Shown: piece by piece, positions 4,001 to 32,658 of the stretch
Layout: each line of letters starts with the position of its first letter
How positions within the stretch are numbered: position 1 is the first letter of the stretch
Origin: ANME-2 cluster archaeon
Lineage (GTDB): Archaea; Halobacteriota; Methanosarcinia; Methanosarcinales; Methanocomedenaceae
DNA: 42,483 nt
Direction: 5' to 3'
Assembly: GCA_014237145.1 (NCBI GenBank)
Contig: JAAXOC010000073.1
Location: forward strand, 1 to 42,483
Program-made: the position numbers and the translations under genes
Notes under the pieces: model-generated
The model's database searches: none
What the model saw: the letters and a program-made list of their open reading frames with translations, nothing else
Told to the model about the DNA's origin: nothing

Positions 4001-4141
4001 GAGATTGTCGGAAAAGCCTTGTTTTTCAATATTTCAGCTTTACGGTCTAAACTCGACATGGCGCTGCATGATGATTTAGTTGGAATAATAATTTTGAAAG
4101 TTTCAATTTAAGCGCTTTTTAGGTACTTTTCCGACAGTCTC
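4001..4141 (+). mobile_element. MITE copy 1 (141 bp)
   Basis: Non-coding element with 16-bp terminal inverted repeats: GAGATTGTCGGAAAAG on the left and, on the opposite strand at the right end, GAGACTGTCGGAAAAG (one mismatch). It is flanked by a direct 5-bp target duplication TAAAA (3996-4000 and 4142-4146). By my base-by-base reading it is identical to the reverse complement of 25432-25572. It contains no ORF of transposase size, so it must be moved by an enzyme encoded elsewhere. It sits between the epimerase and the hydrolase gene and interrupts neither. Confidence 0.9.
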
Positions 4142-12622: not shown

Positions 12623-12669
12623 AATTTTCTTGTAGTATATCAAGTATAACTTGATGTACTCAAGAAAAT
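12623..12669. terminator. Long stem-loop after the TrkA-N/DHH gene
   Basis: GTATATCAAGT-ATA-ACTTGATGTAC (12635-12659) has 11-bp arms, lengthened outward by TTTTCTTG and CAAGAAAA with a one- to two-base bulge. It starts 17 bp after the stop codon between two convergent genes. Its right arm overlaps the first bases of the 60-bp dispersed repeat (12661-12720), so the two structures exclude each other. Confidence 0.5.
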
Positions 12670-12720
12670 CCGACCGAAGTGAGGATTTTGTTCCCGTATA
12701 TAATCAATAAGATTATGTAC
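12661..12720 (+). repeat. Dispersed hairpin repeat, copy A
   Basis: One of three copies of a ~60-bp element (others 23562-23620, 32562-32621). Left part CAAGAAAATCC and hairpin AAAATCC/GGATTTT, right part a 25-bp palindrome (GTATATAATC...GATTATGTAC) that is inverted here relative to the other two. It abuts the stop codon of the S-layer gene directly and may end its transcript. Confidence 0.7.
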
Positions 12721-22636: not shown

Positions 22637-23482
22637 TCAATACTTTGAAGGTGAATGGGCTTCACCATGGCATCCCTTACATTCACTTACATCTAATCCT
22701 GTTAACTGCGCATGGACTCCCTCATGGCAGTCTGCGCATGGACTTACTTGAAGGTGAACCGGGTGACATTCTACACAATTAATGTCTGAATGCTTGGATG
22801 GGTAATCCTGGAATTCCTGTGCAACATTAGGATGGCATTCAATACACAGTTCATTTGCCGTGTCAGAACCGAAATTGACACCTTTAGGCATATGCCCATT
22901 GTGACATTGTGTGCAGTCTTTATTTGCGATATTCCCACTATGGTCAATCCCTTCATGGCAGTCAAGACAATCCGGGATGCCCTTATGTTCTACATGACAG
23001 TCATAGCAACTACCAGAAAGTTCCAAATGGCTACCACCCTCGGTTTTCACATCATTGTATGCTTCACTATGGCATTTGTCACATGCATCGTCAGTCAGGA
23101 GGGAATGGCTTTCATGGCAGTCTTCACAAGGTTTCCCCTCGATATTTATTCTACCCTCTAATTGATGATAACTCCCGTGACATAGATCGCAATCCGAATA
23201 CATAGGTTCTCCACCGAACTCGTGACACCTATCGCATTCACTTGGTATCATTTCTTTATGAACACTGAACCCGGCCATGGCTTCAGGATGGCATCCTATA
23301 TCCACACATCCCGTTTCCATAGGATCTACAGATCCATGCATACTTAAGATGGAATCCTCAGTATGGCATCCACCGCAGTATTCCATCTCAATATCCTGAT
23401 GCAAATGGGTCGGTTTCGCAATACTATATATCAAAAATATAAGTGCCATAATAGCTAACACTGTAACAATCTCTTTTCTCAT
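22637..23482 (-). CDS. Multihaem c-type cytochrome (13 predicted haems)
   Basis: 281 residues from ATG 23482, chosen over an in-frame GTG at 23494 because AAGGTGG lies eight bases before it. An N-terminal hydrophobic segment (IVTVLAIMALIFLIYSIA) acts as signal peptide or anchor; the rest is extracytoplasmic. I count twelve CXXCH motifs and one CX4CH (CVDIGCH) as second haem site, i.e. 13 haems in about 250 residues, plus many extra His for bis-His ligation (for example HESH, HVEH, HNGH, HPVH). The dense packing resembles NrfH/NapC-like and doxX-type electron carriers rather than an enzyme, since I see no substrate site. In ANME-2 and related archaea such proteins carry electrons from membrane methanophenazine pools to the outside; that function is inference. 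It is a single-gene unit. Confidence 0.92.
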   Translation of the reverse strand: MRKEIVTVLAIMALIFLIYSIAKPTHLHQDIEMEYCGGCHTEDSILSMHGSVDPMETGCVDIGCHPEAMAGFSVHKEMIPSECDRCHEFGGEPMYSDCDLCHGSYHQLEGRINIEGKPCEDCHESHSLLTDDACDKCHSEAYNDVKTEGGSHLELSGSCYDCHVEHKGIPDCLDCHEGIDHSGNIANKDCTQCHNGHMPKGVNFGSDTANELCIECHPNVAQEFQDYPSKHSDINCVECHPVHLQVSPCADCHEGVHAQLTGLDVSECKGCHGEAHSPSKY

Positions 23483-23561
23483 ACAATAATCCACCTTAAA
23501 TCCATGCTAATCATTAGTTTAAATCAATAAAGTATAATTCCGTATACCTGCAATACACTTC

Positions 23562-23620
23562 CAAGAAAATCCTCCATTTGGTTGGATTAACTTGAGTACA
23601 TAATCTTATAGATTATATAC
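23562..23620 (+). repeat. Dispersed hairpin repeat, copy B
   Basis: Second copy of the ~60-bp element. CAAGAAAATCC, hairpin AATCC/GGATT with a different loop from copy A, then ACTTGAGTAC and the palindrome GTACATAATC-TTATA-GATTATATAC. It lies in the 256-bp gap between the cytochrome start and tRNA-Tyr; apart from it, this gap shows only AT-rich DNA and a possible cytochrome promoter. Confidence 0.75.
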
Positions 23621-23750
23621 CTACTAAAAAACAATTAATGTATTTCAATATAAATATATCGATATGGTCTGCGGCTGTATAGTCACATAATTATTTCACA
23701 TTGAACTCTTTTCGGGACTATACAATATAGTCTGTAGGTGAAAAATAAAG

Positions 23751-24238: not shown

Positions 24239-24325
24239 TTAATCATATTTTGGCAGGATAATGTTAAAAGTACTGCCATTTTTATCACTTTCCGCCCAGA
24301 TTATGCCATTATGCATTTCTATTAT
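24239..24325 (-). pseudogene. C-terminal remnant of a sensor histidine kinase
   Basis: The 28 codons before TAA read IIEMHNGIIWAES and then NGSTFNIILP, which is the end of the HATPase_c domain (G2-type GSTF box and the closing LP). The frame meets a stop just upstream and nothing of the kinase core (H, N, G1 boxes) is left. Directly adjoins the oxidoreductase fragment. Confidence 0.7.
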
Positions 24326-24678
24326 TTAGCATGAAAGTACCCTTGGGTTCTTTCATTTTTTGAGCATGTCATTCGAAGAATTTCATGTACGTTTTCTGCA
24401 ATAATCCTGTCGGCATATTCAAGTGTCCTGATATTTCCAACACAGATAACCGGTACATCCACCACACTGCGTATCCCTTCTGTAAGGTTCACATGTACTC
24501 CTTCACCCATATCCTCTAATGGAGCCATATGGTTCATGCTTGCATATGTCCCGGCAGCCACACTGATCACATCGGCACCTGCTTTTACAAGTTTGGGAGC
24601 AATTTCCCTGGTCTCATTTAGTGTGACCCCGCCCTCAACAAATTCATCAGCACTGATACGGCAGGAAACGGGTGGGAC
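24322..24678 (-). pseudogene. Fragment of an old-yellow-enzyme-type NADH:flavin oxidoreductase
   Basis: A 118-codon open stretch begins right after a stop and reads PVSCRISADEFVEGG, LVKAGADVISVAAG, then VDVPVICVGNIRT and YADRIIAEN. These are consecutive strands of the FMN-binding TIM barrel found in OYE/2,4-dienoyl-CoA reductase enzymes (the GGxT segment, the AGAD strand and the pVi.vGnirt phosphate-binding strand). Such enzymes have 340-660 residues, so both ends are missing. After RIIAEN the family pattern stops and the frame runs out into the kinase remnant, which marks a deletion junction near 24370. Not expected to be functional. Confidence 0.75.
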
Positions 24679-25431: not shown

Positions 25432-25572
25432 GAGACTGTCGGAAAAGTACCTAAAAAGCGCTTAAATTGAAACTTTCAAAATTATTATTCCAACTAAATC
25501 ATCATGCAGCGCCATGTCGAGTTTAGACCGTAAAGCTGAAATATTGAAAAACAAGGCTTTTCCGACAATCTC
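25432..25572 (-). mobile_element. MITE copy 2 (141 bp), inserted in the antitoxin gene
   Basis: Identical to copy 1 over all 141 bases as I read it, in the opposite orientation. Terminal inverted repeats GAGAYTGTCGGAAAAG and a direct 5-bp target duplication ACAAC (25427-25431 and 25573-25577). Insertion separates the antitoxin from its 5' end. Identity of the two copies suggests recent movement. Confidence 0.92.
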
Positions 25573-27515: not shown

Positions 27516-27938
27516 TCAAAAACATCCATGCCGGAATAAAAGAAGTTCCAGAATACCGGTCATTCTATCTTTCGATATTGTGATCTTTGCCTCAATATCC
27601 TTAAATGCCGGTATTCCGTCGGGCGTTTCATCTGAAACCAATGCATTTACCCACGGCCCATTAACCATAAACCCCAGACCTTTTTGTTCTTCCCTGGGTG
27701 ATGCCATGGCCCTGACAACCACACTGCCCCATTTTGATGTGAGCCTGACGTTTGCCCCGTCCAGGATACCCATATGCTTCATTTCGGCAGTGTCCAGCAC
27801 TATCAAGGCAGACAGCTCCAGGCATTCATCACTAAAGCGGTCCTCTTCATATATACTGGCCTGGAACACATCCCTGCGGGTTATGATCTTGACATCATAT
27901 TCCGGGGCCTTGATGAACTTACTAACATCCAGCGCCAT
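27516..27938 (-). CDS. fwdD: Formylmethanofuran dehydrogenase subunit D, duplicate copy
   Basis: 140 residues of the molybdopterin-dinucleotide-binding beta-barrel domain (FwdD/FmdD). It is a close paralogue of the product of 30079-30486: both begin MALDVSKFIKAPEYD and share KWGSVVVRAMAS and GPWVNALVSDETP, but differ at scattered positions and diverge after KITISKD at the C-terminus, where this copy runs five residues longer. The frame is intact. Just upstream is only the last third of a fwdB, overlapping the start as in the complete locus. Without a full B subunit beside it, it may be expressed with a B from elsewhere, or be on its way to a pseudogene. Confidence 0.8.
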   Translation of the reverse strand: MALDVSKFIKAPEYDVKIITRRDVFQASIYEEDRFSDECLELSALIVLDTAEMKHMGILDGANVRLTSKWGSVVVRAMASPREEQKGLGFMVNGPWVNALVSDETPDGIPAFKDIEAKITISKDRMTGILELLLFRHGCF

Positions 27939-30078: not shown

Positions 30079-30486
30079 TCATAATAAAAGAAGCTCCTGA
30101 ATACAGGTTATTCCATCTTTAGATATTGTGATCTTTACCTCAATATCCTTAAATGCCGGTATCCCACCAGGCGTTTCATCTGAAACCAATGCATTTACCC
30201 ACGGCCCATTAACCATAAATCCCAGACCTTTTTGTTCTTCCCTGGCTGATGCCATGGCCCTGACAACTACACTGCCCCATTTTGATGTGAGCCTGGCGTT
30301 TGCCCCGTCTTTGATACCCATACGCTTCATTTCGTCAGCGTCCAGCACTATCAAAGCAGACAGTTCCATGCATTCATCACTAAAGCGGTCCTCTTCACAT
30401 ACACTGGCCTGGAACACGTCCCTGCGGGTTATAATCTTGATATCGTATTCCGGGGCTTTGATAAACTTACTAACATCCAGCGCCAT
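30079..30486 (-). CDS. fwdD: Formylmethanofuran dehydrogenase subunit D
   Basis: 135 residues, the molybdopterin-dinucleotide-binding domain that in other prokaryotic enzymes is the C-terminal part of the catalytic subunit and here is separate. It helps hold the W/Mo-pterin in the B subunit for CO2 reduction to formylmethanofuran or the reverse. Motifs as in the family: RDVFQAS, LSALIVLD, KWGSVVVRAM, GLGFMVNGPWVN. The ATG overlaps the fwdB stop (TGATG) behind GGAGGTGA, so translation is coupled. The operon ends here without fwdA or fwdC, which must be elsewhere. 267 bp without a gene follow up to the cohesin-dockerin start (29812-30078); they are AT-rich and hold that gene's promoter. Confidence 0.9.
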   Translation of the reverse strand: MALDVSKFIKAPEYDIKIITRRDVFQASVCEEDRFSDECMELSALIVLDADEMKRMGIKDGANARLTSKWGSVVVRAMASAREEQKGLGFMVNGPWVNALVSDETPGGIPAFKDIEVKITISKDGITCIQELLLL

Positions 30487-31747: not shown

Positions 31748-32212
31748 TCATACGAACTCAATAGCCTCGGTTGGGCATGGGTCTATGCATGCCCTGCATA
31801 GTATCCTGTCCTTACCAAAACGCCTGCATTCCTCTATATTGGCAGCTTTTACCTTTCCGTTTTCGACTCTGAAAATGACCTTTCCATTTGTCGGACCAAA
31901 GCCCTTGCCGGAACCGTACGGGTCATTGGCAACATTTACAGGGCAAGCGACTACACAGTTACCGCAGCCTGAGCAGAGTTCTTCATGTATAATGAGCCCG
32001 GTCTCCTCCGCACCTTCCATAGGTTTTAATATATTTTCCAGTTTCTGCCTTGAATCGATGTATTTTTCCTCTTCCATTAGCGGCGGGCATTCGGTGTACT
32101 GTTTGGTGCGTGAAAGTAATGCTACGGCAAATGCCATACAGGTGGATTCATTACATTTCTTGCAGTTGGTTTTTGGCAGTAATTGATATATTTCCATTGC
32201 GCTTGTCATATT
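31748..32212 (-). CDS. Fe-S protein of the formylmethanofuran dehydrogenase operon (FwdG-like, with CdhE-type 4Fe-4S domain)
   Basis: 154 residues from ATG 32212 (MTSAMEIYQLL). The N-terminal 45 residues form the PF04060-type cluster domain of acetyl-CoA decarbonylase/synthase and related proteins: LLPKTNCKKCNESTCMAF and a later Cys (ECPPL). The second half is a two-cluster ferredoxin: CSGCGNCVVACP and, after an unusually long insert, CRACIDPCP. It likely feeds ferredoxin electrons to the FwdB active site. The reading frame is open for 89 codons further upstream but that part lies in the hairpin-rich DNA and does not look like protein. The fwdB start follows its stop after 11 bp. Confidence 0.85.
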   Translation of the reverse strand, partial: NMTSAMEIYQLLPKTNCKKCNESTCMAFAVALLSRTKQYTECPPLMEEEKYIDSRQKLENILKPMEGAEETGLIIHEELCSGCGNCVVACPVNVANDPYGSGKGFGPTNGKVIFRVENGKVKAANIEECRRFGKDRILCRACIDPCPTEAIEFV

Positions 32213-32271
32213 ATAACCACGTAGTAGGGAAGTAACGAACCTTGCATAGCTGTCAATTGAATACAATTGTA

Positions 32272-32406
32272 GTATCCACTTCAAAAAGCATTGTATTTTG
32301 ACAGGATTTACAGGATTTACAGGATGTTGACGTTGCGATATATCCTGTCGATCCTGTTGATCCTGTCTGATAATTTTTAAATTACCCTTAAATTTGAAGT
32401 GGATAC
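32272..32406. repeat. 135-bp composite hairpin upstream of the fwd genes
   Basis: Outer perfect 14-bp inverted repeats GTATCCACTTCAAA (32272-32285) and TTTGAAGTGGATAC (32393-32406). Inside, three ACAGGAT units with 9-bp spacing (32301, 32310, 32319) face three ATCCTGT units with 9-bp spacing (32342, 32351, 32360), giving a second stem with regular mismatches. No coding potential. ACAGGAT/ATCCTGT repeats of this kind are scattered in many prokaryotic genomes. Confidence 0.75.
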
Positions 32407-32504
32407 CAATTATAGATAGTTCGGAACATAAATAAAAACTTCCTGTGACCTGGAAAGTTGATGTTAAGAAAATGCTCACTTGGTTCGTATTTTCTATAGC
32501 TTGC

Positions 32505-32524
32505 AGGAAAGTATATACTTTCCT
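32505..32524. promoter_or_regulatory. 20-bp perfect palindrome, candidate operator
   Basis: AGGAAAGTAT-ATACTTTCCT, symmetric throughout. It lies in the 434-bp non-coding stretch between the fwd operon and mtrH, about 290 bp upstream of the Fe-S protein gene. AT-rich core with GGAAAG flanks is compatible with a dimeric regulator's site. No regulator gene is adjacent. Confidence 0.4.
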
Positions 32525-32561
32525 ATACGTTAAAAAAGCAGCAGAAGTAAAAAAATAAAAA

Positions 32562-32621
32562 CAAGAAACTGTTCACTTACGCTCGCAGTTACTTGAGTAC
32601 ACAATCTTATAGATTATACAC
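32562..32621 (+). repeat. Dispersed hairpin repeat, copy C
   Basis: Third copy of the ~60-bp element: CAAGAAACTG, hairpin AACTG/CAGTT in place of AATCC/GGATT, ACTTGAGTAC, then the palindrome (GTACACAATC...GATTATACAC). It adjoins the T-tract of the mtr terminator. Confidence 0.75.
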
Positions 32622-32658
32622 AAAAAGAAAAAACAAACTGATGTTTTCACACCAGTTT
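32622..32658 (-). terminator. Intrinsic terminator of the mtr operon
   Basis: On the minus strand AAACTGGTG-(6 nt)-CATCAGTTT (one G.T pair) overlaps the mtrH stop codon and is followed by GTTTTTTCTTTTTG. Confidence 0.75.

Follow-up and report, generated by a model that had tools for sequence, protein, structure and literature searches.

The short repeat that recurs in the 42,483-nt stretch of DNA analysed here (the window), from an ANME-2 cluster archaeon, is probably a mobile DNA element of the non-autonomous kind, which multiplies by copying in the genomes of ANME-2 archaea and of some Methanothrix. The repeat is dispersed and has no coding capacity, and its unit of approximately 60-66 nt consists of a hairpin, H1, followed by a second hairpin, P2. 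H1 has the layout CAAG-aa-AATCC-tcccttcggtc-GGATT-na-CTTG and P2 the layout GTACATAATC-ttata-GATTATATAC, with variants; together they fill the whole unit, so that the palindromes lie close to its ends. Three types were distinguished: type I (CAAGAAAATCCTCCCTTCGGTCGGATTAACTTGAG followed by GTACATAATCttataGATTATATACAA, 61 nt); type II, which starts with GAAC and has an AAAATCC/GGATTTT stem and a CAAG/CTTG P2; and type III, with an AAAATGC/GCATTTT stem, the spacer TCTAAGCC, an AGGAAAG/CTTTCC P2 and the end CTATACGT.

Copies in the window and extent of the family

An earlier note, made from the letters of the window, had described three copies of approximately 60 bp. Two of them, copy B at 23562-23620 and copy C at 32562-32621, stand as described. 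Both are type I units on the plus strand: copy B extends over 23562-23622 (H1 23562-23594, P2 23596-23620; R1 match, E 3.2e-8), and copy C, with AACTG/CAGTT arms, over 32562-32623 (P2 32597-32621; R1 match, E 2.3e-7). Copy A, by contrast, had to be moved to 12633-12693 on the minus strand, where it forms a type II unit (GAACAAAATCCTCACTTCGGTCGGATTTTCTTGAG followed by GTACATCAAGttataCTTGATATAC) with H1 at 12659-12693 (GAAC AAAATCC..GGATTTT CTTGAG; R1 match, E 3.9e-9) and P2 at 12635-12659. The palindrome of this copy had been read as inverted, but nothing is inverted: the palindrome-pattern match at 12696-12720 (minus strand, GTACATAATCttattGATTATATAC) is an extra P2 upstream of the minus-strand copy A, and the inversion was apparent because the near-symmetric hairpin looks forward on the plus strand and the extra palindrome then looks inverted. 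From its sequence, the extra P2 can be taken for a partial tandem unit, and comparable tandem arrangements were observed in a relative (G010, loci L127/L135); type II units like copy A are also carried by relatives.

A fourth copy was missed in the first reading, as were approximately 60 copies elsewhere in the genome. This fourth copy is a diverged type III unit at 32465-32530 on the plus strand (TAAGAAAATGC..GTATTTTCTA followed by AGGAAAGTATATACTTTCCTATACGT; R1 match, E 7.1e-6), which belongs to a repeat of approximately 72 nt with many copies in relatives. The apparent start of a Fe-S-domain ORF (31748-32479) lies inside this type III repeat, and the ORF probably has its real start at a more downstream position. 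The palindrome pattern, with at most 3 mismatches, matched only the three noted places in the window and none in 100 shuffles, which confirms that the copies are not due to chance. The window copies had DNA-fold z-scores from -2.4 to -4.9 (copy A, -10.2 kcal/mol, z -4.2).

A covariance model and a genome-wide search, which had been proposed as the check, were carried out. The model, built from 25 copies, was used on the own genome and on relatives, and found 61 places in the own genome (E < 0.07), compared to approximately 30 copies with DNA searches alone. Among 60 relatives, almost all of those in the same family as the own genome carried 8-116 copies each, one member of this family gave a single weak match, and some members of one other family held up to 11 copies. 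The apparently Methanosarcinaceae-like complete genomes of the order had essentially no copies with this model. Only five of 295 genomes of the phylum reached 1e-5, the repeat family being almost absent there. Named matches include the ANME-2 cluster archaea HR1, SMBSF02, B4-03, B4-08 and S7142MS1, other Methanosarcinales MAGs and Methanothrix/Methanosaeta MAGs, some Methanothrix MAGs being rich in copies. Type I units also form head-to-tail arrays with a period of 61 nt, both in G009 and in Methanothrix. With the curated covariance models of Rfam, only a tRNA was detected in the window at the gathering threshold and the repeat was unmatched; a partial literature search found no earlier account of it in ANME-2 or Methanothrix/Methanosaeta.

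Insertion sites and position relative to genes

Seventeen copies with their flanks were sought in five genomes of the same genus. At nine sites, an aligned relative had a clean empty site, with an insert of 60-68 nt that starts at CAAG or GAAC (or the type III variant of it) and a best-fit target-site duplication of 0, that is, no target duplication. At some of these loci the copy was present in other relatives, which shows insertion polymorphism at the same site. Insertion is a simpler reading than repeated precise loss, because identical H1 and P2 units occupy unrelated flanks (G008, G009 and G010); a relic of excision may be present at one site (C110 in G001, L411). The element has no terminal inverted repeats, its ends (CAAGAAAATCC... 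and ...TATATACAA) not being complementary.

In the orientation of the element, the insertion point lies directly 5' of an A-run, and the longest A-run was 4.6 in the right flank versus 2.5 in the left flank and 2.1 in the background. This run belongs to the target and not to the element, since an A-rich run is already present in those empty sites that were aligned. The same arrangement is found beside copy C, which lies approximately 26 nt downstream of the mtrH stop and borders an A-run at 32622-32634 (unstranded) that corresponds, on the minus strand, to the U-rich tract just past this stop. Copy C is present in G001-G005 and missing from the matching intergenic region of G006, a genome of another genus; copy B, whose site is also occupied in G002, G003, G004 and G005, and copy C are otherwise common to the genus. 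G006 lacks the type III copy as well and retains the A/T tract downstream of mtrH; as this tract is conserved there without copy C, the A-run predates the copy.

The earlier note had placed two copies exactly at 3' ends and had linked the repeat to transcript ends. The positions themselves were largely found again: copy A is flanked by the TrkA/DHH and S-layer genes, which are convergent, the palindrome end at 12720 abutting the stop codon of the S-layer ORF (ORF end 12721), and copy C follows mtrH. They do not form a rule, however, as copy B lies on the 5' side of a gene for a multiheme cytochrome (22637-23494, minus strand). Across the own genome, 55 of 65 copies were intergenic, even though approximately 80% of the surveyed DNA is ORF (simple ORF caller). 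The 53 classifiable intergenic copies comprised 11 convergent, 9 divergent and 33 tandem positions, for a length-weighted intergenic background of 17, 30 and 53%, respectively. Gene 3' and 5' ends border the own-genome copies about equally, the strand of the element is balanced and independent of that of the gene, and placement as an intrinsic terminator, at 3' ends in the sense of the gene, was not found for these copies. With no 3'-end bias genome-wide, polymorphic sites and an mtrH tract that exists without the repeat, the link to transcript ends is not upheld, in the further copies found by the covariance model as in the window. The gene-end appearance is best explained by insertion into A/T tracts between genes, a part of these tracts being U-tract terminators.

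Hairpin pairing and rival explanations

The claim that differing arms still pair (AATCC/GGATT, AACTG/CAGTT and AAAATCC/GGATTTT) was confirmed, also in further copies, and hundreds of copies support a structure that is maintained through compensating changes. In 178 distinct H1 hairpins, pair 9-23 (C-G to G-C) ranked first of all column pairs by corrected mutual information and pair 13-19, which exposes an inner pair, ranked second. A pair test on 25 copies gave 85.8% of positions paired, a value reached by 2 of 500 shuffles. The P2 arms vary more than H1, with matching changes (AAAG/CTTT, CAAG/CTTG, AATC/GATT, ATTC/GAAT and AATG/CATT). The structural claim of the first reading holds; the functional claim does not.

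The non-Watson-Crick pairs of P2 are unevenly distributed on the top strand, with 113 A/C versus 49 G/T among 130 distinct P2s and 46 versus 21 when averaged by arm family; these counts are not phylogenetically independent, as the copies are related. The H1 core had no such bias (29 versus 34). Since A/C on the top strand is G.U or G.T on the other, these counts suggest that the bottom strand, in the order P2 then H1, is the one on which the pairing of P2 is preferentially maintained, which is partly shown, and that the structure is read on one strand. The bottom strand also gave better RNA folds than the top strand for copies B (-20.5 versus -15.2 kcal/mol), C (-15.9 versus -10.1) and A (-19.4 versus -13.6). 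Between occupied orthologues, differences amounted to 3.7% in the H1 stem, 13.3% in the loop, 6.1% in P2 and 5-10% (5.4-9.6%) in the flanks, given here with no p-value as the genome pairs share history. The low stem divergence after insertion hints at some selection on resident copies; it may reflect selection, gene conversion or faster loop mutation, and loop hypermutation would look alike.

These observations bear on explanations other than mobile DNA. A selected RNA element, acting as a (bidirectional) transcription terminator or as a 3'-end stabiliser, would account for the 3'-end positions of copies A and C, the four T that follow type II and III hairpins on both strands, the stems changing less than the loops and the better RNA fold of the bottom strand. 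It is nevertheless unlikely, given the absence of 3'-end enrichment and strand bias, the U-tract of mtrH where the repeat is absent and a presence that is polymorphic at the same site. Mobilisation through an RNA intermediate, by retroposition beside T/A tracts, we consider quite improbable: the wobble asymmetry fits an RNA, but it concerns the bottom strand, the opposite of a SINE-like sense strand, and we observed neither a 5' truncation trend nor target duplication to go with the A-run at the top-strand 3' end of the sites examined and the lack of coding capacity. As for P2 (and H1) being an operator or a nucleoid-protein site in duplex DNA, the near-perfect 25-bp dyad of P2 speaks for it; a regulator that reads sequence would not, however, tolerate arms that change freely with complementarity kept, and the excess of A/C over G/T is strand-specific, which makes such a protein-binding dyad highly improbable.

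Mobilisation in trans and relation to known systems

The mobile DNA element is most likely moved in trans by a hairpin-reading single-strand transposase. In a scheme modelled on the IS200/IS605, REPIN-RAYT and PATE systems, the two hairpins would be the recognition marks for a trans-acting transposase on single-stranded DNA, and A-runs would serve as target. The element's own first bases (CAAGAAAA) resemble this target, and new copies would then land directly upstream of old ones; this mimicry would explain the head-to-tail 61-nt tandem arrays. Tentatively, the repeat may even be an archaeal counterpart of REPIN-RAYT, in which an unlinked putative enzyme would read two hairpins on one strand and insert 3' of T-runs without duplication, the 5' end imitating the target and the tandem arrays being self-built.

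Searches for Y1, Y2 and TnpB identified no mobilising enzyme. The resident Y1 genes are IS200-like, several of them broken and interrupted by repeats, and their loci end in a different hairpin (CCCTGGACttaaGTCCGGGG), so Y1/IS200 was rejected as mobiliser by end similarity. Y1 matches in eight genomes included no RAYT gene flanked by the repeat, and none was a REPtron bounded by H1; where H1 occurs close to Y1 remnants, as for some in G008 and G010, it does so only as separate repeats. Degraded Y1 genes that have several short hairpin repeats with a TTCG loop inside or beside them were observed in G010 (L347, L357 and L361) and G008 (L354). IS91/Helitron-like targeting, suggested by the CAAG/GAAC start, was also rejected: these tetranucleotides are not at the insertion points of empty sites, with the exception of C110 in G001, and a Y2/IS91 transposase is absent from most carriers, the own genome included. 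No TnpB signature was detected in the 1.75 Mb of loci examined, including next to copies. A longer autonomous element sharing ends was not found either, as 3'-only matches of a repeat of approximately 150 nt, R2, lead to no gene. R2 has a start (CAAGAAAATG) and an end (CTATACGTT) as in type III and a different interior; in the own genome it has 12 copies of nearly full length, at 11992-12137 of contig C4 and in 11 other places (L438-L449), and at two sites relatives hold R2 where the own genome holds type III. The shared ends of R2 and type III hint at one machinery acting on common ends.

In its features, the closest published kind is that of the PATEs (palindrome-associated transposable elements) of Haloquadratum walsbyi, which are archaeal, transposase-less and of insufficient length for coding, some measuring only 52 bp and being insertion-polymorphic between strains, and which have near-terminal palindromes, no terminal inverted repeats and no target duplication (PMC3119063). 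The present repeat resembles them in having palindromes near its ends, no terminal inverted repeats, no target duplication and insertion polymorphism. The palindromes of PATEs are similar to those of the IS605-type transposons that share their genome (PMC3119063), whereas the palindrome of our repeat differs from the resident Y1 hairpin. With REPINs and GTAG REPs (PMC3116915, PMC3733652) the repeat shares short length, intergenic position, many copies, compensatory hairpin changes and tandem clusters. Unlike REPINs, it has no GTAG tag and no RAYT, and H1 and P2 differ, so that it is no inverted doublet of one hairpin; a tag test for unpaired GTAG/CGTC at the foot of the hairpin failed, as the 5' tag is either CAAG, which pairs with CTTG (type I), or GAAC (type II). 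In a 2018 survey, Archaea had the IS200 type only, and none of the RAYT-type subclasses was observed in them (PMC6006769). CGTC REPs are likewise short palindromic repeats with no dedicated transposase, but they have a CGTC tag, which the repeat lacks, and one hairpin only, and are described in bacterial phyla (PMC3733652). Like prokaryotic MITEs (PMC10969869), the repeat is AT-rich, intergenic, non-autonomous and structured; unlike them, it has no terminal inverted repeats and no flanking direct repeats or target duplication. It is comparable to PATEs and REPINs, but for either kind at least one of the defining tests fails. Overall, the repeat is of an ordinary kind, while its family and its host are new; what is unusual is that two covarying hairpins are combined with targeting of A-runs and with tandems that would be self-targeted.

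Other repeats were observed in the window. A perfect 141-nt inverted pair (4001-4141 and 25432-25572) with end-inverted repeats (GACTGTCGGAAAAG) and many same-genus copies looks like a classic MITE. A 135-nt repeat with inverted ends (GTATCCACTTCAAA) at 32273-32407 has dozens of copies in relatives and is missing at this site in G001, G002 and G005. A repeat of approximately 83 nt (24316-24398), unrelated in sequence to the studied element, has more than 15 copies in G004, and its sequence suggests that it may also have two hairpins. Finally, a 300-nt direct repeat (27535-27834 and 30083-30382, 92% identical) overlaps two small minus-strand ORFs that resemble each other (140 and 135 aa).

Much of the methane in sediments is consumed by ANME-2 archaea, which cannot be grown in pure culture and whose genomes assemble poorly; copies of the repeat were found at contig ends in several MAGs. 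For these archaea the family provides a clean marker of recent changes in the genome, and it is a test case for the spread of REP-like elements in hosts for which no RAYT transposase has been observed. It is also a warning that a hairpin next to an archaeal gene is not necessarily a terminator.
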